From the NCBI GenBank assembly GCA_020436935.1, contig JAGQWX010000032.1, forward strand, positions 1-56,527: a stretch of DNA of 56,527 bases, given 5' to 3'. Source of the stretch: Saprospiraceae bacterium. Lineage in GTDB: Bacteria; Bacteroidota; Bacteroidia; Chitinophagales; Saprospiraceae. Both the position numbers and the translations under genes were made by a program. Below, piece after piece: positions 1-56,299 of the stretch; positions within the stretch are counted from its first letter, which is position 1, and each line of letters starts with the position of its first letter. The notes beneath the pieces were generated by a model. It was not told the DNA's origin. It saw nothing but the letters and a program-made list of their open reading frames with translations, and did no database searches.

Positions 1-1290
1 AGTTACCAACATTTTTTGGCCATTTTAATGTCAACCTATATCATGAGACCACATTGGGTATTTGGTATTAGATTCGATATTTTTTAGGCTTGTAGTATAT
101 TTACCTCTATCTGCGAAAATCTGCGAGAATATCTGCGCATATCTGCGGGAAATAGAACCCGAAGCCGGAGGTGGTCTTTAGTCTTTGGCTATAAATGATG
201 CCTATTTACAAAAACCTTTACTAAATCCTTTAACTTTTAACCTTTAACAAACAACCCCATTTCTCTCGCAATGGCGCAAAGAGGTGGTGAAGATTGAGAG
301 CGCAAAGAATTCAACAATCATCAATTACTGTCAGGGAAAATCTGCGGGCATATCTGCGTTTATCTGCGGGAAAAAGAAACAGATGATGGGTTTTGGTCTT
401 TGGTTTTTTTGGAAGTTAGCGTTTTAGCAATTTGGGGAAGTTTTGGGCAGGTTCCCTTTAGGGCCAGGGTAGCGGGCGGCAGGAATTGGGTAAAGTCTTT
501 GGTCTTTGGTCTTTAGGTGTTGGTCTTTGGTGATCATGATGCCTTATCACAAAAACCTTCTCCAACACAGCCTTTAACTTTTAACCTTTAACAAATAACC
601 CCAATTCTCTCGCAATGGCGCAAAGAGGTGGTGAAGATTGAGAGTGCAAAGAATTCAACAATCATCAGTTACTATCTGCGGGCATATCTGCGTTTATCTG
701 AGGGAAAAAGAAGCAGCCGCTAGGTTTTGGTCTTTGGTTTTTTTGGAAGTTAGCGTTTTAGCAATTTGGGGAAGTTTTGGGCAGGTTCCCTTTAGGGCCA
801 GGGTAGCGGGCGGCAGGAATTGGGTAAAGTCTTTGGTCTTTAGGTGTTGGTCTTTGGTGATCATGATGCCTTATCACAAAAACCTTCTCCAACACAGCCT
901 TTAACTTTTAACCTTTAACAAACAACCCCATTTCTCTCGCAATGGCGCAAAGAGGTGGTGAAGATTGAGAACGCAAAGAATTCAACAATCATCAGTTACT
1001 ATCTGCGAAAATCTGAGGGCACATCTGCGTTTATCAGCGGGAAAAAGAATCCGAAGCCGGGGTTGGTCTTTGGGTGTTAGTCTTTAGTCTTTGGTGATTA
1101 ATGATAATTAATGACAAAAACCTTCTCCAAGAGCCTTCAACTTTTAACCTTTAACAAATAACCCCATTTCTTTCGCAATGGCGCAAAGAGGTCGTGAAGA
1201 TTGAGAGTGCAAAGAATTCAACAATCATCAGTTACTATCTGCGAAAATCAGCGAGATTATCTGCGTTTATCTGCGGGAAAAAGAATCCAT
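1..1290. repeat. Leader of about four long decayed tandem repeat units
   Basis: This stretch has no convincing gene. A core that starts TTCTCTCGCAATGGCGCAAA recurs at 261, 605, 932 and 1168 (the last with one change), so the unit is 236-344 bp long. Each unit combines the same words: a run built on CTTTAACTTTTAACC, the TCTCGCAA..GCGCAAAG core, several ATCTGCG words (for example 112-150 and 675-700), and TTTGGTCTTT words. The units differ by small gaps and changes. Versions of the same core return at 19820, 24690 and 24995, so this is a dispersed family. The open frame at 638-904 lies wholly inside the repeats and is not counted as a gene. Confidence 0.8.
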
Positions 1291-32394: not shown

Positions 32395-32534
32395 TATCGG
32401 TTTTATCGGACGCTCGGTGTATCACTTTTTATAAAATTCTGCAGGCTCATCTAAATGTCGATGATGCAGAATGTGTCATGTTGAGAGGGCATTGAGCCAA
32501 GTTTATTTTCATATATTTGCGTTTTTATAATGAG

Positions 32535-32590
32535 TTAGCTGTTAGCTGTTAGCTGTTAGCTGTTAGCTGTTAGCTGTTAGCTGTTAGCTG
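32535..32590. repeat. Heptamer array (TTAGCTG) x8
   Basis: Eight perfect tandem copies of the 7-mer TTAGCTG. Related single words (GTTAGTCTTTGG, TTTGGTCTTTAGG) continue to 32800, with two copies of a GGATTCCCTTTAGGGCCAAG-like block (about 32685 and 32780). Confidence 0.95.
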
Positions 32591-32824
32591 TTGGTCTTTG
32601 GTCTTTGGAGGGCTGATTCCTTTTAGGGTCAGGGTAGAGCGAGGCGAGTTAGCTGTTAGTCTTTGGTCTTTAGTCTTTGGAGGGAGGGTTCCCTTTAGGG
32701 CCAAGATAGAGCGCGAGGCGAATGAGGTGTTAGGTGTTGGCTGTTGGTCTTTGGTCTTTAGGCTTTGGCTTTTGGAGGGCGGATTCCCTTTAGGGCCAAG
32801 ATAGAGCGCGAGGCGAATGAGGTG

Positions 32825-32915
32825 TTAGGTGTTAGGTGTTAGGTGTTAGGTGTTAGGTGTTAGGTGTTAGGTGTTAGGTGTTAGGTGTTAGGTGTTAGGT
32901 GTTAGGTGTTAGGTG
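32825..32915. repeat. Heptamer array (TTAGGTG) x13
   Basis: Thirteen perfect tandem copies of the 7-mer TTAGGTG (91 bp). One base separates it from TTAGCTG in the array 250 bp upstream. The GG doublet every 7 nt could allow two-tier G-quadruplexes on the plus strand. ATCTGCG words like those at the window start follow (32955-32992). Confidence 0.95.
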
Positions 32916-33081
32916 TTAAATATTGGTTTTCCCAAGAAAATGCCAGCAAATTTCAGCGAAAATCTGCGCACCTTTCAGCGAAAATCTGCGGGAAATAACA
33001 CTTGAACAGCGTTTTGGCACTTTGGCGTTTTGGCGTTTTGGCACTTTGTATATAAAAAAATTCGTAATTCGTAATTCCAAA

Positions 33082-33316
33082 AAAACCACCTGAAAATCAA
33101 AGCATTAATAACAATTAGATCATTATACCATTAGATAATTAGATCATTAAAAAATAAAACCACATGAAAATCAAAGCATTAATAACAATTAGATCATTAT
33201 ACCATTAGATAATTAGATCATTAAAGAATAAAACCACATGAAAATCAGATTATTAAAAACATTAGATCATTAAATTATCAGATCATTAGATAATTAGATC
33301 ATTAGATAATTCAAAC
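33082..33316. repeat. 74-bp tandem repeats directly upstream of uvrD
   Basis: Starts at 33082, 33156 and 33230 give a 74-bp period; copies 1 and 2 are almost the same, copy 3 decays into ATTAGATCATTA / ATTAGATAATT words that reach to the uvrD start codon. Very AT-rich. The uvrD promoter must lie in or before this array; I could not place it. Confidence 0.85.
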
Positions 33317-36207: not shown

Positions 36208-36238
36208 TTGACAATTTCAGATATATCGTATACATTTG
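36208..36238 (+). promoter_or_regulatory. Promoter of the restriction-modification locus
   Basis: TTG (36208-36210) and TACATTTG (36231-36238), 20 nt apart, fit the Bacteroidota consensus. The first start codon of the locus is 24 nt downstream. It is the only convincing promoter I found in front of the tightly packed genes up to 40427. Confidence 0.65.
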
Positions 36239-36262: not shown

Positions 36263-36829
36263 TTGAAAAAGTTAATAAAAGACGTTGCAAATATTCATAC
36301 TGGGCTCTTTGCAAAGCCTGTTGATACTGGCGAAGTGGTCTATTTGCAATCAAAACATTTTGACGAAAATGGAAAATTATTGAACGAATTGCACCCTGAC
36401 CTTTTTGCAAATTCCATTTCTGAAAAACACCTTCTAAAAAATGGAGATGTCATTTTTGCAGCCAAAGGTACAAAAAACTTTGCTGCCGTATTTGAAGGAC
36501 ACAATTTACGTGCTGTAGCTTCGACCTCCTTTTTTGTTTTAAGGATTTCAGACAGAGTTTTGTTACCAAAGTATCTGGCTTGGTTTCTTAACCACCCATA
36601 TACACAAGCAATATTAAAAAGTAATGCAAGAGGAACTGCAATTCCCTCAATCAGGAAAACCGTTTTGGATGAAATGGAAATTGTCATCCCTGCCCTTGAA
36701 AAGCAAATCATTATTTTGGAGCTTTCCAGGCTTGGAAATTTAGAAACTGAATTAAGAAATCAGATTACTGCTCTTAAACGACAATTATTAGAACAAACCA
36801 TTATTAACGAAATAAATAAGAATATATGA
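36263..36829 (+). CDS. Half-size HsdS: one target-recognition domain
   Basis: A 188-aa protein starting with TTG (no in-frame ATG early on). Residues 1-140 read as one target-recognition domain of a type I specificity subunit (KLIKDVANIHTGLFAKP, NGDVIFAAKGTKNFAAVFE, YLAWFLNHPYTQAIL, ARGTAIPSIRKTVLDEMEIVIP). The end is one long helix (LEKQIIILELSRLGNLETEL..LKRQLLEQ). Full HsdS has two such halves, so this form would need to pair with itself or with the other subunit. Its end overlaps the next ORF by 4 nt (ATGA). It is the first gene behind the promoter. Confidence 0.85.
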   Translation: MKKLIKDVANIHTGLFAKPVDTGEVVYLQSKHFDENGKLLNELHPDLFANSISEKHLLKNGDVIFAAKGTKNFAAVFEGHNLRAVASTSFFVLRISDRVLLPKYLAWFLNHPYTQAILKSNARGTAIPSIRKTVLDEMEIVIPALEKQIIILELSRLGNLETELRNQITALKRQLLEQTIINEINKNI

Positions 36830-37086: not shown

Positions 37087-38670
37087 ATGCCAAATAAAAT
37101 CACTCAGAAAGACATCAACGATGCGGTTTGGAAAGCTTGCGACACCTTTAGAGGCAGCATTGACCCAAGTGTGTACAAAGACTATGTGCTCACCATGCTA
37201 TTCCTAAAATACCTCAGCGATGTACATGACGATAAAAGGGAAAGCTACTTGGCCAAATATAACGGTGATGCAGAAAGAGCCAAACGTGCCATGCAACACG
37301 AACGTTTTGTAGTGCCAGAGCATAGTCACTTTAAGTTTCTATATGAATCACGTAATGAAGCCAATATTGGCGAACTGATCAATATTGCATTGGCAGATTT
37401 GGAAGAGGCCAACCGAGAGAAACTGTACAGCGAAGATGGTGCTGGTATTTTCCAAAACATCGACTTTAACAATAGCAAATTAGGTGAACCCAAAGACAAA
37501 AACCAACGGCTAAAAACCTTATTAATTGATTTCAACTCAGATAAACTAGACCTTCGTCCATCTCATTTAGGAGGAAATGACATCATTGGTGGGGCTTATG
37601 AATTTCTTATTTCTAACTTTGCAAGTGATGCGGGTAAAAAGGCAGGTGAATTTTTTACACCATCAGAAGTATCTACCCTTCTAGCTAAATTGACAAAAAG
37701 CAAACCAGGTTCTCGCATTTGTGACCCTACATGTGGTTCAGGTTCTTTATTGATTAAAGCCGGTAACGAGGTGGACTCAGAAAATTTTTCTCTATACGGG
37801 CAAGAAGCCAACGGTAGCACCTGGGCTTTGGCTGTAATGAACATGTTTTTGCATGGTTTCGACAATGCGACGATTCGTTGGGGCGATACCATACGCAACC
37901 CGAAACTGAAAGAAGGTGACACACTAATGAAGTTTGATACCGTAGTGGCAAATCCGCCCTTCTCATTAGACAAATGGGGAAAGGTAGAAGACAAAGATGG
38001 CGATAAAACCACTGTGAGTTATGACCCTGAAAGCGATAAATACAATCGTTTTTGGCGTGGTGTGCCGCCCAAAAGTAAAGGCGATTGGGCGTTCATCAGC
38101 CACATGATAGAAACGCTGAACGAACACGGAAAAGCCGGTGTGGTAGTGCCACATGGCGTATTATTCCGAGGCAGCAGTGAAGGCCGTATACGCCAACGCA
38201 CCATTGAGGAAAATCTGCTAGAAGCAATAATTGGATTACCTGCCAACCTGTTTTTTGGCACAGGAATTCCGGCAGCTATTTTGATTTTTAATAAGCAAAA
38301 AGCATTCAGTTCGAGTGGCGTCGAGAACAACAACTTTTTGTTCATAGATGCCAGCAAACATTACGAATCTGCCAAAAACCAAAACAAGCTGCGTGAAAGC
38401 GACATCAACCACATTGTAAATACATATCGTGATTTTGCGACTGGTAAACTTAAGCCCGGTGTGGTGGAAGATAAATACAGCTATGTAGCCACGCCTGAAG
38501 AAATACAGGAAAACGACTACAACCTGAACATCCCCCGCTATGTGGACACCTTTGAAGAAGAAGCCGAAGTGGATATTGCTGCGGTACAGAGGGAGATCGA
38601 GCAACTGGAAGGTGAATTAAAGAAAGTACAAGGAGAGATTGAGGTTTATCTAAAACAATTAGTAACCTAG
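37087..38670 (+). CDS. hsdM: Type I restriction-modification DNA methylase (HsdM)
   Basis: A 527-aa N6-adenine methyltransferase. HsdM_N helices (residues about 8-150), then GEFFTP at 187, SAM-binding motif I DPTCGSGSLL (about 213) and catalytic N289-PPF. The C-terminal coiled region (VDIAAVQREIEQLEGELKKVQGEI) should contact HsdS. All key residues are present, so it should be active. It forms the M2S core with the specificity protein and R subunits with HsdR. Confidence 0.96.
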   Translation: MPNKITQKDINDAVWKACDTFRGSIDPSVYKDYVLTMLFLKYLSDVHDDKRESYLAKYNGDAERAKRAMQHERFVVPEHSHFKFLYESRNEANIGELINIALADLEEANREKLYSEDGAGIFQNIDFNNSKLGEPKDKNQRLKTLLIDFNSDKLDLRPSHLGGNDIIGGAYEFLISNFASDAGKKAGEFFTPSEVSTLLAKLTKSKPGSRICDPTCGSGSLLIKAGNEVDSENFSLYGQEANGSTWALAVMNMFLHGFDNATIRWGDTIRNPKLKEGDTLMKFDTVVANPPFSLDKWGKVEDKDGDKTTVSYDPESDKYNRFWRGVPPKSKGDWAFISHMIETLNEHGKAGVVVPHGVLFRGSSEGRIRQRTIEENLLEAIIGLPANLFFGTGIPAAILIFNKQKAFSSSGVENNNFLFIDASKHYESAKNQNKLRESDINHIVNTYRDFATGKLKPGVVEDKYSYVATPEEIQENDYNLNIPRYVDTFEEEAEVDIAAVQREIEQLEGELKKVQGEIEVYLKQLVT

Positions 38671-38672
38671 AA

Positions 38673-40427
38673 ATGGAAAAACTCACCCGACATAGTATTC
38701 AGTGGTTTTACAACCTTTTGCATAAAGGCGAATGTGAAATTCTTGATTTCAAGGAGCAGTTGGAAGATAAAATTGCTTTTGGCAAGTCTTTGAGAAATTT
38801 TGCACCCAAATATGACGAGTTAGCCAAAGATGTGGTAGCATTTGCCAATAAAAAAGGAGGTTTTTTATTTGTAGGGATTGAGGATAAAACCAAAGAACTT
38901 AATCCAGATTTTGAATATGCTGACAGCAAAGTGTTTGAACTCATTCGTCAAATTCAAGACAGAACAGTTCCATCTATTACCATCAAACCACACAAAGTGA
39001 ATATTGATGGGCAAAATGTATTGGTGTTAGAAGTACCTTTTACTACTCAACTACATAGAACTTCCAAAAGTGAATATTTGATTAGAAGTAATGATGGAAA
39101 CAGGCCCATAGAAACCTATGAAATGGCGACTATTCAAGCTGAAAAAGGATTGATTATCTATGACCAAAAAACTTGGGATTTGCCATTATCAAGTAAGGAA
39201 ACTGACAAGCAGGGAAATCCGATCCCGGGATGGCAGGACATAGAAAAAACAAGAGATTTGTTTTTGCGCATTCAAAGGGAAAAACCACAAAGCCCTTATC
39301 TGAAAAACAATTCACCCGAGTTTACAGAAACTCTTGGATTAATAAAGGAAGATAACGGAAAATCACTCCCCACTACAGCAGGTATACTCTTTATAGGCAA
39401 CGCCAAAGCGCTAAAAGAACTACCCTACAATCAAATTAAATACATCCGATATTATGAAGATGGCACTTATACACCATTTGAGTATAGTGGCAACTTGATT
39501 GAAATGGCTGACGCATGTTTTCAGCAACTAAAGTCAGAAACCAAGGTAAAAGAATTTCACTTTGGTTTGTTTAGAGAATATATTGAAGATTACCCAGAAG
39601 TAGTTCTCAGAGAGCTTTTGATCAACGCCATCGCCCATCGTGATTATAGTCGACAACAAATTATTGAGATTAGAAAATACCCTAATTATCTAGAATTTGA
39701 AAGTCCGGGACATTTCCCACAAGGGATTAATGAAACCAACTTTCTGAGAAAAACCAATCCACGTAATCCGGGTATAATGGATGTATTGCGCGAAATCAAT
39801 TATGCTGAAAAAGCAGGCAGTGGGTTTGATAAAATATTTACGGCTTTATTATCCAAAGGAAAAAAAATACCTCAACCCATTCAATCTGAAAACTCCATTT
39901 TATTGCGAGTTGAGGCGGATGTGTATTCAGAAAAATTAGCCGAGTTGAGTTTATTGTATAAGCAAACCGCCAAAAAAGATATTGATCTTGAAAAACTCAT
40001 TGTACTTAACCATATATACACAGGTCAAAAACTCACCTTTCAACAGCTAGAACAGCTGCCCTTTGTAAACCATTATCAGTTGCGGAAAATTTTAGCCGAA
40101 TTGCAAGAGATTGAGTTTATCGAAACCACAGGTAGAACATCTGGATTGAAATACATTATCCATAAAAGTAAGCTAGTAGATATTGACGATAAGATTAGTT
40201 ACTCAAAGCTGAAAAAGCAGGAACGTGCCGAGCATATAGAAGCTATTATCAGATATTTAAAAACGGCTGATGAAATTACGAATGAAGCAGCCAGAAAAAT
40301 TTTGAATATACCCGATACCAATGCATCTTATGTGTCAAGGCTTTTTGCCGAAATGGTGGAAAATGGGCATATTATAGTAGCAGAAGAGACCAAGCACAAC
40401 CAAAGAACGTATAAGTTGAAATCATGA
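38673..40427 (+). CDS. AlbA_2/Schlafen-like protein with divergent ATPase and winged-helix domains
   Basis: A 584-aa protein starting 2 nt after hsdM. Residues about 10-130 form an AlbA_2 (Schlafen-like, nucleic-acid-binding) domain (ECEILDFKEQLE, KDVVAFANKKGGFLFVGIED). Residues about 220-400 are a divergent ATP-binding ('RecG-related', HATPase_c_4) domain (LRELLINAIAHRDYSRQQIIEIRKYPNYLEF, AGSGFDKIF). The last 150 residues carry two winged helices (LTFQQLEQLPFVNHYQLRKILAELQEIEFIETTG; DEITNEAARKILNIPDTNASYVSRLFAEMVENGHI). Such proteins often sit inside type I loci and are thought to regulate. Its stop codon lies on the first TTTGCAA-type box of the spacer behind it. Confidence 0.9.
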   Translation: MEKLTRHSIQWFYNLLHKGECEILDFKEQLEDKIAFGKSLRNFAPKYDELAKDVVAFANKKGGFLFVGIEDKTKELNPDFEYADSKVFELIRQIQDRTVPSITIKPHKVNIDGQNVLVLEVPFTTQLHRTSKSEYLIRSNDGNRPIETYEMATIQAEKGLIIYDQKTWDLPLSSKETDKQGNPIPGWQDIEKTRDLFLRIQREKPQSPYLKNNSPEFTETLGLIKEDNGKSLPTTAGILFIGNAKALKELPYNQIKYIRYYEDGTYTPFEYSGNLIEMADACFQQLKSETKVKEFHFGLFREYIEDYPEVVLRELLINAIAHRDYSRQQIIEIRKYPNYLEFESPGHFPQGINETNFLRKTNPRNPGIMDVLREINYAEKAGSGFDKIFTALLSKGKKIPQPIQSENSILLRVEADVYSEKLAELSLLYKQTAKKDIDLEKLIVLNHIYTGQKLTFQQLEQLPFVNHYQLRKILAELQEIEFIETTGRTSGLKYIIHKSKLVDIDDKISYSKLKKQERAEHIEAIIRYLKTADEITNEAARKILNIPDTNASYVSRLFAEMVENGHIIVAEETKHNQRTYKLKS

Positions 40428-40614
40428 TTGCAAAGAAAAACATATTGATAATCAGTGAGTTAAAAAATTCTTCTTTGCAAGTTTCTTTGCAAAGTTGCCA
40501 ACTTAGCTCTAAGGCTTCTTTGCAGGTTCAGGTGGTTTCCTTCTCCATTTGCAAAGAGCAAACAGCTATAAACCAACGTTTTTACCCAAGTCTCTTTGCA
40601 AGCTTGTTTGCAAG
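40427..40614. promoter_or_regulatory. Cluster of seven TTTGCAA(AG) boxes between the AlbA_2 gene and hsdS
   Basis: Boxes of the palindrome CTTTGCAAAG lie at 40427-40435 (on the stop codon), 40473-40480, 40485-40494 (perfect), 40518-40525, 40548-40556, 40594-40602 and 40606-40614. Boxes 2/3 and 6/7 are pairs with the same 12-nt step. The spacer is 205 nt long and ends at the hsdS start. An open frame of 67 codons (40424-40627) crosses it, but its sequence merely follows the boxes (SLQVSLQSCQ), so I do not call it a gene. Likely an operator array for a local DNA-binding protein. Confidence 0.65.
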
Positions 40615-40632
40615 TAACCCAAATTAGAAAAT

Positions 40633-41949
40633 ATGGCAGCAACAAAAAATACTAAAGCGTTTTACAAGACTAAAATTCCGAGTGATTGGTCTGCACTAGA
40701 GTTTGGCGATGTTTTTAATTTCTTAAAGACATTTTCATTTTCTCGTGAACAGCTTACAGGTGAACCGACAAAAGATGGAATCAGAAATATTCATTATGGT
40801 GACATTCATGCTACCTATGAAAATGAAGTTCTCGATTTCGAGATTGAAAAAACTATACCTTACTTATTTGATGGTATAATTGACTCTAAGAGTTTTGATG
40901 ATGAAAATTTTCCTGCATTGAAAGAGGGAGATTTAATTATTGCAGATGCGTCAGAAGACCATGAAGGCGTTTGCGATTGTGTAGAGTTAAAAAATATTAA
41001 TGGCAATAAGGTTATATCTGGCTTACATACGTTTGCGGCAAGAGCTTCCGAAGACAAAATTGCATTAGGATTTCGGACGTATACTTTGCAGCACGAACAA
41101 GTTATTAGAGAATTAAGACGCATTGCAACAGGTACATCGGTTTATGGAGTTTCAAAAACAAATCTTTCTAAGGTAAAAATTCCACTCCCCCCACTCCCCG
41201 AGCAAAAGGCCATAGCCCAAGTGCTCAGCACAGCAGATGCCGCTATCCACACCAACGAAAAACTCATTGCCCAAAAAGAACTCCGCAAAAAATGGCTCAT
41301 GCAGCAATTGCTTACGGGGAAGAAAAGGTTGAAGGGGTTTGAGGGGGAGTGGAAGGAAAAGAAATTAGGAGAGTTATTCTCCCACTTAAGAAATACAAAT
41401 GATGGCGGTGATGGTCATTCTGTAATGACTATATCTGCTAAACTTGGATTAGTTTCTCAAGAAGATAAGTTCGATAGGATAATTGCAGGAGAAAGCCTGA
41501 AAAAGTACACCCAATTGAGTAAGGGCGATTTTGCCTACAACAAAGGGAATTCTAAAACATATCCCATGGGGTGTATTTACAGGCTTGAGGAAAAGGAAAG
41601 CGCCTTGGTTCCTTTTGTTTATATATGCTTTAGACCAAGTGATAAAGTTGATGGAATGTTTTACAAACAGTGGTTTGTGGCCCATGGGTTAGACAGTCAA
41701 CTCAATAAAATTATTACATCTGGTGCAAGAGGAGACGGCTTACTTAATGTGAATAATGATGATTTTTTCAAACTAAAAGTCCCATATCCACCTAAAGAAG
41801 AACAAACCGCCATTGCCCAAGTTTTGCAAGCAGCCGATAAAGAAATCAGCCTGCTTAAAGCCAAAGCCGAGAAGTTGCGGGAGCAGAAAAAGGGCTTGAT
41901 GCAGGTGTTGCTGACAGGGAAAGTGAGACTTAAATTAGGTAGAGTATAA
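40633..41949 (+). CDS. hsdS: Type I specificity subunit (HsdS), full size
   Basis: A 438-aa two-domain specificity subunit that chooses the DNA target of methylase and nuclease. TRD1 (about 15-190) ends in KIPLPPLPEQKAIAQVLSTAD, followed by the first conserved helix (KLIAQKELRKKWLMQQLLTGKKRL). TRD2 (about 240-385) ends in VPYPPKEEQTAIAQVLQAADKE, followed by the second helix (EKLREQKKGLMQVLLTGKVRL). The two repeats are the usual circular arrangement. It is separated from hsdM by the AlbA_2 gene and the box cluster, unlike the usual adjacency. Confidence 0.95.
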   Translation: MAATKNTKAFYKTKIPSDWSALEFGDVFNFLKTFSFSREQLTGEPTKDGIRNIHYGDIHATYENEVLDFEIEKTIPYLFDGIIDSKSFDDENFPALKEGDLIIADASEDHEGVCDCVELKNINGNKVISGLHTFAARASEDKIALGFRTYTLQHEQVIRELRRIATGTSVYGVSKTNLSKVKIPLPPLPEQKAIAQVLSTADAAIHTNEKLIAQKELRKKWLMQQLLTGKKRLKGFEGEWKEKKLGELFSHLRNTNDGGDGHSVMTISAKLGLVSQEDKFDRIIAGESLKKYTQLSKGDFAYNKGNSKTYPMGCIYRLEEKESALVPFVYICFRPSDKVDGMFYKQWFVAHGLDSQLNKIITSGARGDGLLNVNNDDFFKLKVPYPPKEEQTAIAQVLQAADKEISLLKAKAEKLREQKKGLMQVLLTGKVRLKLGRV

Positions 41950-41957
41950 TAAAAGAT

Positions 41958-42809
41958 ATGGCAAAGAAATTACAGCGAGTTGCAATAGCTTACGACTTTG
42001 ATGGAACATTAGCTCCGGGCAATATGCAACAACATTCCTTTATTCCAAAGCTTGGAGTTGATAGCAGCACTTTTTGGAAAGAGGTAAAAGCTATCGCAAA
42101 AGACAACGACATGAATGAGATATTGGCATACATGCATCTAATGCTTAAAAAGGCTCATGAAAAAAATATTCCAATAACAAAAAAAGCATTTGTTGAACAT
42201 GGTAAAGGAATGCCAATGTTTCCTGGAGTTGTGGGATACTTCAAAAAGATTAATGAATATGCTAAATCAAAAGGATTAGTAATTGAACATTATATTATTT
42301 CTTCTGGTCTTCGGGATATTCTAAAAGGAACTCCAATTCATAAAGAATTTGAAATGGTGTTTGCTTCTGCGTATAAATATGATGTAAACGATGTAGCAGA
42401 ATGGCCAGCATTAGCAATTGACTATACTAACAAAACACAATTTCTATTCAGAATAAATAAAGGGATTAAAAACGCTTGGGATAATGAGAGCATAAACAAG
42501 TTTATGCCGGAAAATGAAAGACCAATGCCATTTAATCGAATGATTTATTTAGGAGATGGTGAAACGGATATTCCTGCCATGAAGATGATAAATTTTCAAG
42601 GTGGTAAATCTATTGCTGTTTATAATCCTGATACGAAAACTAAAGCCGGTAAGAAAGCGAAGAAAATAACACAAGAACTTGTTTCGCAAGGTCGTGCCAA
42701 CTATGTGGCTCCAGCTGATTATTCAGAAGGAAGTTCACTTTATAAAATCATCCAACTGTGTATTGATTCAATGGCGGCAGAAATCGAACTTCAAAATTTC
42801 AAAAAATAG
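41958..42809 (+). CDS. HAD-superfamily hydrolase
   Basis: A 283-aa phosphohydrolase. Motif I D13-F-D15-G-T (AYDFDGTLAPG), motif II ISSGLRD, motif IV GDGETDIPAM, with the long helical cap between 20 and 110 (HSFIPKLGVD.., MPMFPGVVGYF). Closest in build to phosphoserine-phosphatase-like HADs. Substrate unknown. It starts 8 nt after hsdS and ends 5 nt before the TIR gene, so it is in the same operon. HAD proteins of this kind occur in several defence islands, but the role is not known to me. Confidence 0.88.
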   Translation: MAKKLQRVAIAYDFDGTLAPGNMQQHSFIPKLGVDSSTFWKEVKAIAKDNDMNEILAYMHLMLKKAHEKNIPITKKAFVEHGKGMPMFPGVVGYFKKINEYAKSKGLVIEHYIISSGLRDILKGTPIHKEFEMVFASAYKYDVNDVAEWPALAIDYTNKTQFLFRINKGIKNAWDNESINKFMPENERPMPFNRMIYLGDGETDIPAMKMINFQGGKSIAVYNPDTKTKAGKKAKKITQELVSQGRANYVAPADYSEGSSLYKIIQLCIDSMAAEIELQNFKK

Positions 42810-42814
42810 AACTC

Positions 42815-43588
42815 ATGAAATACCTAGTCTGGGACTTAAAACAACTTAAAAGTGGCGAACGGGTTAAAGTAACATTAAACGGTAATGCTGCTAATGTTCG
42901 TTTGATGGACAGTTCCAATTACAGCAATTATAAATCAGGGAGAAGTCATCGTTATTCGGGCGGCTTAGTAACAAAATCACCTGTTGTGTTGGGAGTTCCA
43001 AGTTCCGGGCATTGGTATGTAACTGTTGATATGCAAGGGCTGAGAGGTTCAACCAATGCAACCTTTCAGGTTTTGCCCTCAGCTTTGCCAACTTATCAAG
43101 ATGCTCCACTCTCATCTGTTCCCTCATTGGTGCTAGGCAGAGAGCAATCACCTTTCGGTTTCCTAGAAAATGATTACAGAGAACATGATGTATTTATATC
43201 TCATGCTTTCGAAGATAAAGATGAAATAGTGAGACCCTTAGCCATAGCTCTGAGGAACGCTGGCTTATCCGTTTGGTATGATGAATTTGAATTAAAGATT
43301 GGAGACAGTTTAAGACAAAAAATAGACAGAGGCCTTGCTAAAAGTAAGTTTGGAATAGTTGTGCTTTCCAAGAGTTTTATTAAAAAAGGTTGGACAAACT
43401 ACGAACTTGATGGAATTATCACAAAAGTAGTAAGTGGCGAACAGGTATTACTTCCTATTTGGCACAATATTACAAAACAAGAAGTAGTTGATTTTTCTCC
43501 TTCTATTGCTGATAAAATTGCTCGTAATACAGCAAATTTCACTATTGAAGAAATCGCTAGTGAAATTGCAGAGTTAATCCAAAACTAA
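42815..43588 (+). CDS. DUF1883-TIR protein
   Basis: A 257-aa protein. Residues 1-90 are a DUF1883 domain (YLVWDLKQLKSGERVKVTL.., SGHWYVTVDMQGLRG). Residues about 123-257 are a TIR domain (EHDVFISHAFEDKD, LSVWYDEFELKIGDSL, FGIVVLSKSFIKKGWTNYEL). The likely NADase glutamate is E197 in WTNYELD. Bacterial TIR proteins of this kind act in antiviral NAD-depletion or signal-making systems. No STING, Thoeris or CBASS partner is seen; the neighbours are a HAD enzyme and a DUF2188 protein, so those could be its partners. Confidence 0.92.
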   Translation: MKYLVWDLKQLKSGERVKVTLNGNAANVRLMDSSNYSNYKSGRSHRYSGGLVTKSPVVLGVPSSGHWYVTVDMQGLRGSTNATFQVLPSALPTYQDAPLSSVPSLVLGREQSPFGFLENDYREHDVFISHAFEDKDEIVRPLAIALRNAGLSVWYDEFELKIGDSLRQKIDRGLAKSKFGIVVLSKSFIKKGWTNYELDGIITKVVSGEQVLLPIWHNITKQEVVDFSPSIADKIARNTANFTIEEIASEIAELIQN

Positions 43589-43600
43589 AACATCAAGCAC

Positions 43601-43840
43601 ATGCCACGCAAAGAAAGACACATTGTACCCAATAAAGATAGAGGAGGTTGGGATTCAAAAAGAGAAAATGCAGATAGAGCTTCAAGGCATTTTGAAACCA
43701 AAAAGGAAGCTATGGACTGGAGCCGAGAAAAGGCGAAACAAGAAAAATCTGAATTGATACCACATAGAAAAGATGGAAAAATTCAAAACCCAGACAGCTT
43801 TGGGAAAGACCCTAATCCCCCAAAGGATAAAAAGCGATAA
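43601..43840 (+). CDS. Small DUF2188-type protein
   Basis: A 79-aa basic protein. The order HIVPNKDRGGWDSKRENADRAS, HFETKKEAMDWSREKAKQEKSELIPHRKDGKIQNPDSFGKDPNPPKD matches DUF2188 as I know it (H.VP...GGW......A....FdTk.eA...ar..A......eL..H..dG.I....syG.dp.P). Function unknown; often found beside restriction or phage genes. It starts 12 nt after the TIR gene. Confidence 0.82.
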   Translation: MPRKERHIVPNKDRGGWDSKRENADRASRHFETKKEAMDWSREKAKQEKSELIPHRKDGKIQNPDSFGKDPNPPKDKKR

Positions 43841-43897
43841 TCAAGCAAGATTTGCCCACCCACGGTAGAGTTTATTGGGCAAAACCAATATCAAAAT

Positions 43898-44983
43898 ATG
43901 GAATATAAAATACCACAACTCCCCTTGGCGCTCGACTTAGAAACCAAGGCCATTCTGAAAAAAACGGCTGCTGCTAGAAGTGCTTTGGCAGAAATGAAAG
44001 GGGCCGCCCTTAGCATTCCGAACGAAAGTATCTTAATAAGCACCCTCTCTCTTCAAGAAGCCAAAGACAGTTCGGCCATTGAAAACATTATCACTACTCA
44101 TGATGAACTGTATCAGGGAGATTATCTGAAAAGGGAATTTAAATCTATAGCCTCCAAAGAGGTACACAACTATGCAGAAGCACTGCGGTGGGGGTTTGAA
44201 ACGGTCAGGCATAAAAGAATTTTGATAAATAACCACATCATTCAGATGCAGGCAACACTGGAAGAAAATGATGCCGGTTTTAGGAAAGTGCCAGGCACAG
44301 AATTAAAGAACGAACAAACAGGAGAAATCGTTTATACCCCTCCCCAAACTTATGATGAGGTGGTGGCTTACATGAGTAATCTGGAACAGTTCATCAACGA
44401 CAATACACTCAGCGACTGGGATCCGCTGGTGAAAATGGCCATTATTCATCATCAGTTTGAGAGTATCCACCCTTTTTATGACGGTAACGGAAGAACAGGC
44501 AGAATTATCAATATCCTGTATTTGGTGAAGGAAGGCATGTTGAATTTACCTATTTTGTACTTGAGCCGATACATCAATCAAAACAAAGGCGACTATTATC
44601 GTTTGCTCCAAAAAGTCCGCACCGAAAACGCCTGGGAAGAATGGGTGATGTATGTGCTTGATGGTGTGGAGCAGACTTCCTTACAAACCATCAAAATTAT
44701 TGAAGGAATCAAGCGTCTGATGCTGAAACACAAAAAGAAAATTAGGGAGAGCACCAAGTTCTATAGCCAAGACTTAATTAACAATCTTTTCAATCACCCG
44801 TACACCAAAATTGATTTTATCATGACCGATTTGGAGGTAAGTCGTTTGACAGCCACCAAATACCTGGATGAACTCGACCGGATTGGCGTCTTGCAAAAAG
44901 TGAAGCTTGGCAGAGATAATTATTACATCAATACAGACTTATACAACCTATTATCGAACGTAAATCACATAAAACATGTATAG
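43898..44983 (+). CDS. Fic-domain protein with self-inhibition motif and winged helix
   Basis: A 361-aa Fic protein that should transfer AMP (or another nucleotide part) to a target protein. The catalytic motif H191-PFYDGNGRTGR is complete. An inhibition motif of the (S/T)xxxE(G/N) type, S58-SAI-E62-N63, lies in front, so activity is probably held off inside the molecule. The C-terminal about 75 residues are a winged helix (YTKIDFIMTDLEVSRLTATKYLDELDRIGVLQKV). The stop codon (44981-44983) is part of the first ACATGTATAGAAAA box. It probably acts as a self-regulated regulator in the locus. Confidence 0.93.
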   Translation: MEYKIPQLPLALDLETKAILKKTAAARSALAEMKGAALSIPNESILISTLSLQEAKDSSAIENIITTHDELYQGDYLKREFKSIASKEVHNYAEALRWGFETVRHKRILINNHIIQMQATLEENDAGFRKVPGTELKNEQTGEIVYTPPQTYDEVVAYMSNLEQFINDNTLSDWDPLVKMAIIHHQFESIHPFYDGNGRTGRIINILYLVKEGMLNLPILYLSRYINQNKGDYYRLLQKVRTENAWEEWVMYVLDGVEQTSLQTIKIIEGIKRLMLKHKKKIRESTKFYSQDLINNLFNHPYTKIDFIMTDLEVSRLTATKYLDELDRIGVLQKVKLGRDNYYINTDLYNLLSNVNHIKHV

Positions 44984-45165
44984 AAAAACAACATTTTCTA
45001 TACATATTCAGAAAACATGTATAGAGCAAATAACTTGAGTAGAACATCTACAAAAAGAAAATTGAGCAAAATGTCACCGGAAAAATAGGTACATGTAAAG
45101 AAAACAAGCAAAAACTACACATGAGGAAGACAACATATATAGAAAACCGCACTATTCTATACATG
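44974..45165. promoter_or_regulatory. Cluster of ACATGTATAGAAAA boxes with two 12-6-12 inverted repeats before hsdR
   Basis: A 204-nt spacer between fic and hsdR. ATGTATAGAAAA (44976-44987) and TTTTCTATACAT (44994-45005) form a perfect 12-bp inverted repeat with a 6-nt loop at the fic stop codon. At the other end, ATATATAGAAAA (45135-45146) and TATTCTATACAT (45153-45164) repeat the layout, also with 6 nt between (10 of 12 matching). Forward boxes also lie at 45015-45026 and 45091-45104, and weaker ones at 45044 and 45115. It looks like an operator array; a terminator role for the first hairpin is possible but no T-run follows. Confidence 0.65.
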
Positions 45166-45187
45166 ATACAAACAAAATTAGCGAATA

Positions 45188-48100
45188 ATGGACACACCAA
45201 GTTTTAAAGAAGACCATATCAGCCAGATCCCAGCATTGCAGATGCTTGTGAATTTGGGTTATACCTATCTGAGTCCGGCAGAAGCCGACAGACAAAGAGG
45301 TGGTAAAACAACCAACGTACTTTTGGAGGATGTGTTGCGGAAGCAATTAAAGGAAATAAACAGTATACGAGTTAGTGCTACCAAAACCGGCATTTTCACA
45401 GATGAAAATATAGAACGGGGTATTCTGGCTTTGAAAAACCGCCCCATGAACAAAGGCTATATTGCAGCAAGTGAAAGGGTTTATAACCTGCTTACATTAG
45501 GTCAGGCAATGGAGCAAAGTATAGATGGCGACAAAAAGAGTTTTACCCTGCAATACATTGACTGGAAAAACATCAACAACAATGTATTTCATGTAGCCGA
45601 AGAATTCAGCGTAATGCGAAGTACCAGCAAAGAACATTACCGCCCAGATTTGGTCTTGTTTGTAAATGGTATACCGCTTTGCGTTATCGAGTGCAAACGT
45701 CCTGACATGAAAGAGCCGTTGAAACAGGCTATAAGTCAGCATTTGCGTAATCAACAGGATGATGGAATCAGAAGCCTGTATGTGTATTCGCAACTCACTT
45801 TAAGTATTGCCACACAGGAAGCCGCTTATGCAACCAATGCTACACCCGAAAAGTTTTGGGCAAAATGGCAAGAGAAATTTAGCAACGATGAAGAAGAACG
45901 CAACTTCAAAGGCAAACTACAAGAACTCAAAAACAAACCACTGCCGGTTTCAATAAAAGAACAATTATTTTCTGACCGTTTCAAATACGTTCGCCAGTAT
46001 TTTGATGCACTGGAACAAGAAGAAATTCTGCCAACCGAGCAGGACAATTATTTGATTGGATTATGCCGTCCTGAAAGATTGATGGATATAGTTTTTAATT
46101 ACGTTTTGTTTGACACCGGAGAAAAGAAAGTAGCCCGTTATCAGCAGTTTTTCGCTATAAAAAAATCCATGCAACGCATTAAACATGTTGAAAATGGAAA
46201 ACGCAAAGGCGGTGTCATCTGGCATACACAAGGAAGTGGAAAGTCCTTAACAATGGTGATGTTGGCACAAGCCATTGCTATGGAACCAAGCATTCGTAAT
46301 CCAAAAATTGTCTTGGTAACAGATCGCACCGATTTAGACAATCAGATTACTAGTACATTCCGAAAGTGTGGCAAGTTTGTAGAAAATGCCACGACGGGTC
46401 AAAGATTGGTTGAGCTATTGGAAAACAAAAGTGATGCAGTAGTAACGACTATCATCAACAAGTTTGTGGCGGCTGTTAAGAAAATAGAAAAGCCTTTAGT
46501 AAGCCATGATATTTTTGTTTTAGTAGATGAAGGACACCGTACACAACATGGTACGTTTAATATTGACATGCAAAAAACCTTGCCAAATGCCTGTTTTATT
46601 GCAATGACTGGAACACCGCTTTTCAAAAAAGATAAGAATACAGCTGAAAAATTTGGTGGCCTGATTGATGCTTATACGGTAGACCAAGCCGTAAAAGATA
46701 AAGCTGTTGTTCCATTACTTTATGAAGGTCGAGTAGCCATTCAAAACGTAAATGATGGACCAATTGATACGTATTTCAACATGGTTATGGAACCAATTAC
46801 AGAATATCAAAGATCAGACTTCAAAAAAAAATTTTCTAGATACGACGAACTAAACGGTGCTGAAGAAAAAATTTATGCTATTTGCTGGGATATAAGTCGA
46901 CATTTTCGCGATAATTGGCAAGGAACACCTTTCAAGGCGCAATTGGTTTGTGATAAGAAATTGAATGCCATCAAATATAAAAGTTATTTGGATCGAATTG
47001 GTATAGTGAGTAGTGAAGTTTTGATTTCATCCATTGACGAAAGAGAAGGTGAAGATAGTGCTTATGAGAAGTCTACAGAAATAGAAAATCAGTTTTGGAA
47101 AAAAATGATGGACGAACATGGCAATTCAAAAAGCTATGAGAAAAACATCATTAGTCGTTTTAAAAATCAGAAAGACCCGGAAATTATTATTGTAGTTGAC
47201 AAATTGCTTACTGGTTTTGATGAACCTAAAAACACAGTATTATATCTCACCAGGAATTTACAAAGCCATAAACTCTTACAAGCCATTGCAAGGGTCAACC
47301 GCCTTTATCCTGACAAAGAATTTGGCTACATCATTGACTATTATGGTGTTATTGAAAATTTGGATGGTGCATTACAATTGTATTCTTCATTTGAAGATTT
47401 TGATGATGAAGATTTGGAGGGTACACTCACCAATATTTCAGATGAAATCAAAAAGCTACCACAAAAGCATTCAGACCTTTGGGATATTTTCAAAACCATT
47501 GCCAACAAGCGTGATACGGAAGCCTATCAACAATTATTGAAAGATGAAGCGATACGGGTTTTCTTTTACGATAAACTAGCTGCCTTTGCAAAGGGCTTGA
47601 AATTAGCACTGTCCTCTATTCAATTCCATAGAGAAGTAGAAGGAAAAGTTATCAATCGTTACAAAGAAGATTTAGCCATGTTCTTAAAATTGCGTTTGGC
47701 AGTTATTAAAAGATACAGCGATGAAATTGACTACAAACAATATGTGGGGCAAATTCAAAAACTGATAGACACACATATCACAACTGAAAAAATTGAAATA
47801 ATCACTGAATTGGTAAACATTTTTGATAAAGATAAATTTCAACTGGAAGTAGAAAACACTACAGGAAAAGCGGCTAAGGCAGATAAAATTGCTAGTAGAA
47901 CAGCAAAACACATCACAGAAAAAATGGATGAAGACCCTGCATTTTACAAGAAATTTTCACAAATGCTGAGAGAAGCGATTTCCGATTATGAAGCAAATCG
48001 TATTAGTGAGGCACAATACCTGAGCAGAGTTCAGGACATCATGAACAATGTTTTGGCTCATACCGATAACGATATTCCAGAGCAATTGAAAGACAGAGAT

Positions 48101-48412
48101 GTTGCCAAGGCGTTTTATGGCTTGACAGTTGAAGCATTATCTAAAAAGATTCAAGACAATATTATTAGCAAAGAAGTGGCGACACAAACGGCTTTACAAA
48201 TTGAAGACCTGATTCATTCTATAGTTTTAGATAATGCAAAACCAATAATCGACTGGCAATACAAAACCAACATCACGGGTAAATTACTTATTGAAATTGG
48301 TGACTATCTGATTGATGAAGTTCGAGACAAATACAATGTAGATTTGTCGTTTCAAGAAATGGATAAGATTGCAGAAGATTGTATTGAAGTAGCTAAAATC
48401 CGGTACAAGTGA
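45188..48412 (+). CDS. hsdR: Type I restriction endonuclease, motor/nuclease subunit (HsdR)
   Basis: A 1074-aa DNA translocase and endonuclease. The PD-(D/E)xK nuclease is seen at D154...E168-C-K170 (RPDLVLFVNGIPLCVIECKRPD). SF2 helicase motifs: Walker A GSGKS (349-353), motif II D447-EGH, TGTPL, and VDKLLTGFDEPKNTVLYL, LLQAIARVNR. The C-terminal about 300 residues are the helical contact domain for the methylase core. All active residues seem intact. Its distance from hsdM and hsdS (cargo of five genes between) is unusual. Confidence 0.96.
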   Translation: MDTPSFKEDHISQIPALQMLVNLGYTYLSPAEADRQRGGKTTNVLLEDVLRKQLKEINSIRVSATKTGIFTDENIERGILALKNRPMNKGYIAASERVYNLLTLGQAMEQSIDGDKKSFTLQYIDWKNINNNVFHVAEEFSVMRSTSKEHYRPDLVLFVNGIPLCVIECKRPDMKEPLKQAISQHLRNQQDDGIRSLYVYSQLTLSIATQEAAYATNATPEKFWAKWQEKFSNDEEERNFKGKLQELKNKPLPVSIKEQLFSDRFKYVRQYFDALEQEEILPTEQDNYLIGLCRPERLMDIVFNYVLFDTGEKKVARYQQFFAIKKSMQRIKHVENGKRKGGVIWHTQGSGKSLTMVMLAQAIAMEPSIRNPKIVLVTDRTDLDNQITSTFRKCGKFVENATTGQRLVELLENKSDAVVTTIINKFVAAVKKIEKPLVSHDIFVLVDEGHRTQHGTFNIDMQKTLPNACFIAMTGTPLFKKDKNTAEKFGGLIDAYTVDQAVKDKAVVPLLYEGRVAIQNVNDGPIDTYFNMVMEPITEYQRSDFKKKFSRYDELNGAEEKIYAICWDISRHFRDNWQGTPFKAQLVCDKKLNAIKYKSYLDRIGIVSSEVLISSIDEREGEDSAYEKSTEIENQFWKKMMDEHGNSKSYEKNIISRFKNQKDPEIIIVVDKLLTGFDEPKNTVLYLTRNLQSHKLLQAIARVNRLYPDKEFGYIIDYYGVIENLDGALQLYSSFEDFDDEDLEGTLTNISDEIKKLPQKHSDLWDIFKTIANKRDTEAYQQLLKDEAIRVFFYDKLAAFAKGLKLALSSIQFHREVEGKVINRYKEDLAMFLKLRLAVIKRYSDEIDYKQYVGQIQKLIDTHITTEKIEIITELVNIFDKDKFQLEVENTTGKAAKADKIASRTAKHITEKMDEDPAFYKKFSQMLREAISDYEANRISEAQYLSRVQDIMNNVLAHTDNDIPEQLKDRDVAKAFYGLTVEALSKKIQDNIISKEVATQTALQIEDLIHSIVLDNAKPIIDWQYKTNITGKLLIEIGDYLIDEVRDKYNVDLSFQEMDKIAEDCIEVAKIRYK

Positions 48413-56057: not shown

Positions 56058-56154
56058 GCGATAGTGCAGTAAACGAATATCAGGTGTCATCTTTGATGAA
56101 AGGATAATCTGAGATGTTAAGACATGTTTAGAGTGGAGTGTTTAGGGTTTATTC

Positions 56155-56234
56155 GGTTATTTGGTTATTCGGTTATTTGGTTATTTGGTTATTCGGTTAT
56201 TTGGTTATTTGGTTATTTGGTTATTTGGTTATTT
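56155..56234. repeat. Octamer array (GGTTATTY) x10
   Basis: Ten tandem copies of GGTTATT(T/C), preceded by AGGGTTTATTC as at 55247. The spread of T/C changes shows older and newer units. No gene in 56058-56434. Confidence 0.9.
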
Positions 56235-56299
56235 GATTATTTTATTTACACGAGATGCAGTAATGAAGGCAGAATATCTTACTAAAATTTCAAATTAAA

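Follow-up and report, generated by a model that had tools for sequence, protein, structure and literature searches.

Candidate operator arrays for the C-terminal winged helices of AlbA_2 and Fic effectors within a type I restriction-modification operon of a Saprospiraceae bacterium

We analyzed a 56,527-nucleotide (nt) stretch of DNA from a Saprospiraceae bacterium (contig JAGQWX010000032.1 of assembly GCA_020436935.1, a 5.8-Mb genome in 181 contigs), hereafter the window, which carries a type I restriction-modification (RM) operon. Two effector genes of this operon, an AlbA_2 (Schlafen) gene and a SoFic-type fic gene, encode predicted C-terminal winged helices, and each is followed by a spacer filled with repeated words, or boxes, that leads into hsdS and hsdR, respectively. 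We propose, with a probability of about 0.64, that each spacer is an operator array for the C-terminal winged helix of the effector encoded in front of it, most likely serving local feedback and/or holding of the effector. From the sequence comparisons below, it is very probable that the box is recognized by the winged helix of the preceding gene. An effect of the array on the next hsd gene would be somewhat better than an even bet, and a role of the array in holding or sensing is a more doubtful possibility.

RESULTS

Two spacers, each with its own boxes

The first-pass annotation of this DNA had described two spacers of nearly equal size, each located behind a gene for a C-terminal winged helix and in front of an hsd gene, with the first box lying on the stop codon and paired boxes near both ends. 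We confirmed all of these features, the winged helices being predicted. Spacer 1 (positions 40428-40632, 205 nt) extends from the stop codon of the AlbA_2 gene to the start of hsdS at 40633, and spacer 2 (44984-45187, 204 nt) from the fic stop codon to the start of hsdR at 45188. The annotation had also assigned to each spacer repeated copies of one box. Each spacer indeed has its own type of word, but spacer 1 contains exact CTTTGCAAAG only once, the other words being variants. Seven words with a TTGCA core (at 40427, 40474, 40486, 40519, 40548, 40595, and 40607) are spread over all three reading frames of spacer 1. In spacer 2, the boxes form inverted pairs of (A)CATGTATAGAAAA at 44974-45005 and 45132-45165.

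We expressed repetitiveness as a z score against 100 dinucleotide shuffles and obtained 18.0 for spacer 1 and 6.1 for spacer 2; a z of 5 was reached by 26 of 343 spacers of 90 to 450 nt from 79 related hsd loci and the window stretch. On a 7-mer score within the window, 37 (spacer 1) and 101 (spacer 2) of 2253 sub-windows scored equal or higher; long tandem tracts elsewhere in the window make parts of it more repetitive than either spacer. Across the 5.8-Mb genome, the spacer-1 pair pattern without mismatch was found at two places, both in spacer 1, and the spacer-2 inverted pair with at most two mismatches was found in spacer 2 only. Within these mismatch limits, no other locus of the genome has the paired boxes.

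The Fic protein exceeds the curated Pfam cut-offs for Fic_N (89.2 bits), Fic (69.3 bits), and SoFic-like_C (79.8 bits), corresponds to SoFic in PADLOC (2.4e-119), and matches the SoFic structure 3eqx by sequence (E value, 1.3e-78). A fold search with its AlphaFold model also returned SoFic entries at the top. The catalytic motif HPFx(D/E)GN(G/K)R is present as HPFYDGNGRTGR (residues 191 to 202) and is invariant in all 11 sequences compared. Residues 291 to 350 of the model form a helix-helix-helix-wing block with a predicted local distance difference test (pLDDT) score of 63 to 83, the rest of the model being poor (mean, 44.2). The AlbA_2 protein has the domains of its family, namely SLFN_AlbA_2 (63.8 bits) and HATPase_c_4 (50.8 bits) in Pfam and a predicted C-terminal winged helix; residues 511 to 584 are likewise modeled as helix-helix-helix-wing (block pLDDT, 68 to 88) within an otherwise poor model (mean, 38.8).

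Arrays follow the type of the gene in front of hsdR

Since a class-wide search with the AlbA_2 protein (395 genomes; E value, 1e-50) matched only the window's own genome, related loci were collected via hsdR. The best 80 of 99 relatives of HsdR gave 79 distinct loci, designated here by L numbers; those without an hsdR gene start (L044, L060, L068, L089, and L093) were left out, as was L076 in the typing of neighbor genes. Where the contig reaches, hsdM, hsdR, and the gene 3' of hsdR are conserved, and the genes between hsdM and hsdR are exchanged. In the 74 loci retained, which include the window, we typed the longest gene with its end in the 800 nt upstream of hsdR; it was AlbA_2-like in 24, Fic in 16, and other in 34. 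When the fixed 250 nt before hsdR were scored for all 74 genes, a z of at least 4 was found behind 14/16 Fic and 18/24 AlbA_2-like genes versus 2/34 other genes. Arrays therefore track the winged-helix genes and not hsdR as such. Homologous loci devoid of boxes, which the first-pass annotation had named as grounds for rejecting its proposal, did not turn up: boxes are present in 16/16 fic-hsdR spacers and in 5/5 spacers behind close AlbA_2 genes.

A separate repeat was seen between hsdM and hsdS in L063 and L064, where a small gene, which we take to encode a GxxExxY protein, is followed by repeats of AATCACGGAT (L064) or its variants (L063).

Fic boxes change together with the winged helix

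The Fic boxes of the hsd loci fall into class A (CATGTATAG, 10 genes), class B (CATGTAAAG, 4 genes), and class C (TCATGGGTAAA-like, 2 genes), and the predicted recognition helix (residues 316 to 328) reads SR(L,I)TA(T,A)KYL in class A, SRPTATRYL in class B, and (S,G)RKTAAKYL in class C. Within class A it is SRLTATKYL, except in L029 (SRITATKYL) and L049 (SRLTAAKYL). From residue 170 on, the three classes are all separated by columns 280, 310, 313, 317, 335, 353, 357, and 358. The class C genes L042 and L045 are 93 to 97% alike to five class A and B genes in the catalytic part, compared to 56 to 66% alike to the same five in the winged helix, where L042 and L045 are 84% alike to each other. Their linkers are 72% alike, with that of L042 being 90 to 93% and that of L045 69 to 72% alike to class A. 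Comparing the linkers with the winged helices suggests that a winged helix and its box may have been exchanged together as a unit.

When 198 genomes of the phylum were searched for the SoFic winged-helix family, 50 had matches (set 1). At a z of 4, a downstream array was found for 3/29 Fic open reading frame (ORF) hits, one of them being the window's, and an upstream array for 6/28; one Fic gene with a short flank was left out. Upstream of fic, the helices ITRLTATKYL or VSRITATKYL go with CATGTATAG (L191 and L193) or ATATGTATAG (L186), VSRPTATRYL with CATGTAAAG (L185), AKRQTAADYL with TGTCGA, and SRSTAIRYL with AAGTCAAA. At least two copies of the box of their own class accompany 21/26 classified genes, a count that includes the window's gene and uses class rules drawn from set 1 itself; shuffled labels gave a mean of 7.5 and did as well in 0/5000 trials. 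The breakdown was 6/6 for class A, 1/4 for B, 12/12 for D, 2/2 for E, and 0/2 for F. Among the 20 such genes besides the window's, the boxes lie upstream in 17 and downstream only in L165, L166, and L167. A second search covered 395 genomes of the class, 104 of which had matches, and 28 ORF hits of new loci were scored as a held-out set. With the rule fixed, 3/8 classified genes had their own-class box, and 22/5000 shuffles were as good (class A, 2/2; B, 1/1; C, 0/1; F, 0/4). The box rule for class F thus failed, with two copies in none of its genes in either set. Broadening class A post hoc to R(L/I)TA..YL and TGTATA placed the box in 9/11 class A genes, L201 and L202 being two of the nine.

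We also used a test that requires no motif, in which helix identity was correlated with shared repeated 7-mers, given catalytic identity, for 69 Fic genes (2173 pairs; hsd-hsd pairs, proteins of less than 200 amino acids [aa], and L187, the window's own copy, were excluded). The partial rank correlation was 0.332 (0/1000 randomizations). At catalytic identities of 50 to 65%, boxes were shared by 59% of 37 like-helix pairs versus 5 to 6% of 880 unlike-helix pairs. The claim that each winged-helix protein goes with its own box, with the two changing together, is thus supported, and clearly so for Fic in hsd loci and in other genomes.

Candidate Fic boxes in other genomes mostly precede the start codon of fic itself, the classical autoregulatory position, whereas in hsd loci of the window's type they lie behind fic and before hsdR. 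An hsd-like stretch is present in the flank (about 1 kb) of 5/57 Fic loci other than the window's (L165, L166, L180, L184, and L204). As in the window, L165 and L166 have hsdM-like stretches in front and class boxes behind fic, and L204, a held-out class B locus, has an hsdR-like gene and boxes behind fic. No relatives of Fic or AlbA_2 were found on viral contigs.

AlbA_2 arrays lie behind or inside the gene

Words of the TTTGCA type follow five close AlbA_2 genes and one gene remnant (L029). Residues 1 to 503 of four close relatives are 91 to 95% alike to those of the window's protein, and the recognition stretch (residues 546 to 563) matches the window's at 18/18 positions in L050 and L075, 9/18 in L038, and 5/18 in L080. 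The ratio of CTTTGCA to GTTTGCA words, both strands included, is 7:1 in the window, 7:3 in L075, 5:1 in L029, 5:6 in L050, 1:8 in L038, and 4:5 in L080, and CGTTTGC is found 0, 1, 0, and 2 times in the group of the window, L075, L029, and L050 versus 6 times each in L038 and L080. Among the close AlbA_2 genes, a joint shift of the last winged helix and the word composition is thus seen, which is the test that the first-pass annotation had proposed, but the shift is graded and not clean. AlbA_2 genes of more distant kinship in front of hsdR fall into group IIa, which has ATTCTCTGTAT words, and group IIb, which has TTTAAGAGA words. Changed helices in group IIa go with the word variants TTCTCCAAAA (L033 and L043), ATTCGCCAGA (L071), and TTCCCCATAT (L090), and several IIb arrays sit upstream of a left-over IIa array.

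HATPase_c_4 was found in 120/296 genomes of the phylum. A z above 4 around the stop codon was seen in 6/30 short AlbA_2 survey loci. Forty longer survey stretches were taken from the hit list, of which five (L159 to L163) were re-fetched places known to carry arrays. An array at the stop codon was present in 16/38 AlbA_2-type genes compared to 6/238 other genes (P = 2.9e-11), close relatives being included (L131/L133 and L138/L141), and the difference persisted without the four re-fetched genes (12/34; P = 2.3e-8), L162 having given no counted gene. Only 1/38 had an upstream array. Among word steps of up to 40 nt in 35 arrays, 11 nt (42 steps) and 12 nt (22 steps) make up 64/124, a count that includes relatives and some near-palindromes counted on both strands and to which two arrays contribute 21 of the 64. 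The array of L135 has seven TTATGTGA copies on one 11-nt grid across 275 nt. BLAST with the hsd proteins of the window showed neighboring hsd genes for 8 of the 19 array-bearing AlbA_2 genes (16 with a z of at least 4 and three weaker) and, among the rest, for L148.

The first-pass annotation had suggested a link between the spacer and the repetitive tails, of the TPQVTPQV type, that AlbA_2 proteins often have, and in substance this was supported. An array inside the gene, before the last winged helix, was found in 13/36 surveyed genes (proteins of less than 350 aa were left out), and TPQV-like protein repeats were seen (TSEV, TPEV, TEQV, GEVA, and EGVN). The period is 11 nt in L148, L161, L142, and, more weakly, L145, and 12 nt in the other nine. 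The 11-nt arrays, including those behind the protein repeats of L148, L142, and L161, run through all reading frames of the protein. A period of 11 nt cannot be divided by three, which speaks more for a function of the DNA than for one of the peptide. In-gene and post-stop arrays occur together in two genes only (Fisher P = 0.014).

Organization of the operon

According to Pfam and PADLOC, the type I RM operon of the window consists, in order, of a half-length hsdS, hsdM, the AlbA_2/HATPase_c_4 gene, hsdS, a HAD-like gene, a TIR-DUF1883 gene, a small ORF, fic, hsdR, and a gene at 48409 (Table 1). The candidate promoter in front of it contains the sole Bacteroidota-type promoter word TANNTTTG of the three window stretches scanned. 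A sigma-70 promoter scan was uninformative (25 found versus 25.1 expected). Of 11 predicted terminators (7.8 expected), which included one in spacer 1 on the minus strand, none was taken as real.

Table 1 Positions in the window of the RM genes and of the elements in the two spacers
Feature	Position	Strand	Remarks
Candidate operon promoter	36208..36238	+	TTGACA-N17-TACATTTG, 5' of half-length hsdS; 10/12 matches, consensus match only
Half-length hsdS	36263-36829		TTG start; in front of hsdM
hsdM	37087..38670	+	Pfam N6_Mtase, HsdM_N
AlbA_2 (Schlafen) - HATPase_c_4 - winged-helix gene	38673..40427	+	Pfam; winged helix predicted
Predicted recognition helix, last winged helix of AlbA_2 protein	40314..40361	+	Residues 548-563
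67-codon open frame filling spacer 1	40424..40627	+	ATGA overlap with AlbA_2 stop
Spacer 1 box on AlbA_2 TGA stop codon	40426..40435	+	GATTGCAAAG
Spacer 1 box pair	40473..40494	+	CTTTGCAAG / CTTTGCAAAG; words at 40473/40485, step 12
Spacer 1 boxes	40518..40556	+	CTTTGCAGG and ATTTGCAAAG
Spacer 1 box pair directly before hsdS	40594..40614	+	CTTTGCAAG / GTTTGCAAG; words at 40594/40606
hsdS	40633..41949	+	Pfam Methylase_S
Small ORF before fic	43602-43840
fic, SoFic type, C-terminal winged helix	43898..44983	+	Pfam Fic_N, Fic, SoFic-like_C
Predicted Fic recognition helix	44843..44881	+	Residues 316-328; class-separating residues 313, 317, wing residue 335
Spacer 2 inverted pair 1	44974..45005	.	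ACATGTATAGAAAA / TTTTCTATACAT; first arm on fic stop codon
Spacer 2 single box	45015..45024	+	ACATGTATAG
Spacer 2 short inverted repeat	45039..45051	.	GTAG-N5-CTAC
Spacer 2 imperfect inverted pair 2	45091..45123	.	CATGTAAAG / CTACACATG
Spacer 2 inverted pair 3	45132..45165	.	Adjoining hsdR
hsdR	45188..48412	+	Pfam HSDR_N, SWI2_SNF2

A counterpart of the half-length hsdS stretch is present in 49/56 related loci with hsdM. The region between hsdS and fic (41958-43588) contains the HAD-like gene (PADLOC candidate PDC-S34) and the TIR-DUF1883 gene (PDC-S66, ThsB-like), and an inverted repeat, TTTGCCCA / TTGGGCAAA, lies in 43841-43897 between the small ORF and fic. The long tandem tracts of the window lie upstream of the gene at 33317 (32534-33311) and close to the two ends of the window (195-1007 and 56149-56242); their units are GTTAGCT (8 copies), AGGTGTT (14 copies), ATTAGATA-type units, a 327-nt repeat, and TTATTTGG (12 copies).

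DISCUSSION

Observations that weigh against operator arrays

Several observations speak against the proposal that each spacer is an operator array for the preceding winged helix. For the control of hsdS and hsdR expression that the first-pass annotation had proposed for the boxes, no promoter was recognized in the spacers: the word TANNTTTG is absent from the plus strand of spacer 1, spacer 2, and 13 IIa-type spacers. Whatever the Fic class of the locus (A, B, or C), the inverted pair adjoining hsdR is of the CATGTATAG form, and a Fic-type pair persists before hsdR in L018, L020, L038, and L064, which lack Fic and have in its place a gene pair that, judged by eye, we take to resemble AbiE; the copies in L018 and L064 are degenerate. 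Similarly, IIa arrays are kept before hsdR behind a IIb gene in L019, L025, L027, L065, and L081. L184 has its boxes in front of fic in spite of an hsdR-like gene behind it, and L201 and L202, from one genus, carry theirs on the 3' side of fic, and no hsd gene was detected in their flanks. The pairing rules of helix and box are incomplete, as classes B and F in set 1 and classes C and F in the held-out set show, Fic genes within a box class are related to each other, and the signal may be carried by the whole winged helix instead of the recognition helix alone. As for AlbA_2, L050 combines the window's predicted recognition helix with mixed words, which is in part the variation of boxes under one helix that the annotation had held to be incompatible with its proposal. 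A post-stop array is absent from 22/38 surveyed genes, and the motif-free association of helix and box across AlbA_2 genes (proteins of less than 350 aa, duplicates, and hsd-hsd pairs excluded) is weak, at 0.064, with 5/500 permutations as high. Finally, the inverted pairs at both ends of spacer 2 are perfect and could form RNA hairpins.

Alternative explanations

This last point leads to the alternative that survives best, although it is unlikely, namely, that the boxes act in mRNA, as hairpins in spacer 2 or as protein-bound words in the hsdR or hsdS leader, and set translation with no DNA operator involved. The consensus fold of spacer 2 has -16.9 kcal/mol, with sequence changes on both sides in 4/32 pairs, and both arms of the last inverted pair are changed together in L038, where the AbiE-like pair and no Fic stands in front. 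However, the covariation term is unfavorable (+0.92), and the middle pair is conserved as imperfect. No internal promoter was recognized in the spacers, and one frame has been kept open in spacer 1 and likewise in the IIa spacers, as one would expect of a translated leader. The IIa-type set comprises eight loci with a IIa gene and five with a IIb gene (L015, L022, L024, L030, L035, L070, L075, L091, L065, L019, L025, L081, and L027); one frame is open to hsdR in 12/13, with 1 stop compared to 11.0 expected from column shuffles (0/1000), and the other frames show no deficit. We infer that the frame is maintained to let ribosomes travel on to the hsd gene and not for the sake of a peptide. Against an action in mRNA, many AlbA_2 arrays are tight direct repeats 11 to 12 nt apart, and such an action does not predict the joint change of box and winged helix in genes of other genomes.

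A still less probable reading takes the arrays for scars or hot spots of cassette exchange: recombination within the repeated words would swap the modules, and the words would have no part in regulation. The modules between the hsd genes do vary by locus, the chimeric loci L037, L077, and L088 retain fic ends or pairs of the Fic type downstream of other modules, IIb genes stand upstream of left-over IIa arrays, and L042 agrees with L045 in winged helix and box class though its linker is nearer to class A. Yet the boxes differ by gene type and therefore provide no common crossover site, and the match of helix and class extends to the fic genes of other genomes, which mostly have no hsd gene in the flank and mostly carry the boxes in front.

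That the spacers are ordinary coding DNA of small proteins, with the words as protein repeats, is highly improbable: the 67-codon frame of spacer 1 does overlap the AlbA_2 stop codon and has counterparts in L075, L050, and L029, and the IIa frame is open as described, but variability is equal at the three codon positions (0.161, 0.156, and 0.159), codons with nonsynonymous changes outnumber those with synonymous ones in 6/6 spacer 1 pairs, boxes occur in all three frames, the spacer 1 frame alone was open in 210/5000 shuffles, and no frame is open through spacer 2.

A model for the arrays

In our preferred reading, in which the spacers are operator arrays, the TTTGCAAA words would be bound by the AlbA_2/Schlafen protein and the CATGTATAG half-sites in inverted pairs by the SoFic-type Fic protein. 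An effector on its array would limit the next gene (hsdS or hsdR), and perhaps its own, so that the level of the effector and that of a restriction subunit would be tied; in addition or instead, the array would hold the effector on DNA beside its own gene. The step acted on could be read-through transcription, with the bound effector as a roadblock, a weak local promoter, or translation. Given that TANNTTTG is missing from the spacers, the array may block read-through, or a promoter of another type may be used, or control may be exerted at the mRNA level.

A general design can be sketched only tentatively. Schlafen/AlbA_2 and SoFic-type effectors might assemble via their last winged helix on an array at or inside their own 3' end (for Fic, at the start of the regulated gene), and this array might be both the operator of the next gene and a perch keeping the effector inactive until the local DNA is altered. 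The AlbA_2 array would be phased at 11 to 12 bp, and AlbA_2 repeats would be the same arrays read as protein, some of them in all three frames.

Our results suggest a way in which effectors located inside restriction loci could be connected with the restriction subunits. They would provide a first helix-to-box code, with several helix types each having its box, by which targets could be predicted from protein sequence. They also offer an explanation of repetitive AlbA_2 protein stretches as DNA arrays and suggest that a winged helix and its operator are exchangeable together as one 3' cassette.

Comparison with known systems

In type II RM systems, controller proteins (C proteins) encoded in the locus bind paired boxes and thereby order the expression of modification and restriction. 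C proteins are small stand-alone helix-turn-helix (HTH) proteins with boxes at their own promoter, whereas the locus described here is of type I, the presumed reader is fused to an effector, and the boxes are internal.

The following comparisons concern the portions of the cited reports that we considered. RptR represses type I RM islands via three direct repeats (PMC12255303). It resembles the present case as a dedicated regulator that reads direct repeats, and the hsd genes of its type I RM island likewise flank an effector module, but RptR is a separate small protein acting at the island promoter (PMC12255303). In our locus, the presumed reader forms part of the effector, and the repeats lie within the operon in front of one hsd gene. 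No controller of the C-protein or RptR kind was found in front of the arrays, where the genes encode large effectors and the boxes lie inside the operon; the search did not extend to the rest of the genome. A Schlafen-family RNase fused to a minimal histidine kinase and a winged HTH (wHTH), an auxiliary component of BREX loci, has the same domain order as our AlbA_2-HATPase-winged-helix gene (PMC12839542). The terms "operator," "tandem repeat," "promoter," and "binding site" are absent from the main text of that report, as far as it was considered, and arrays are not described in it (PMC12839542). More broadly, text searches of the open-licence literature gave, in the portions considered, no description of such arrays downstream of the AlbA_2 or Fic genes of type I loci, which is weak evidence of their novelty.

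CccR is a Fic protein that has an HTH at its C terminus and controls the expression of its own gene (PMC9755527). Like our Fic protein, it combines a Fic domain with a C-terminal DNA-binding domain, and footprinting located inverted 10-bp boxes in its own promoter (PMC9755527), an arrangement shared by many SoFic-type genes of other genomes, in which inverted boxes precede fic. Relatives such as L185, L186, L191, and L193 carry such upstream boxes, and none was found 5' of the window's fic gene (upstream z, 0.9). The CccR boxes precede the gene and are 26 bp apart (PMC9755527), whereas those of hsd loci of the window's type lie behind fic and before hsdR, form several pairs, and fall into classes that follow the helix. 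By analogy with CccR, Fic probably represses the gene that starts behind its boxes, which would be fic where boxes precede fic and hsdR in loci of the window's kind.

CbFic2, another Fic enzyme with a C-terminal wHTH, changes its activity upon DNA binding by this domain (PMC10628234). It was tested with randomized DNA and not with a cognate array before a restriction gene (PMC10628234). That its activity is switched by DNA supports the notion of an array able to hold or tune the effector.

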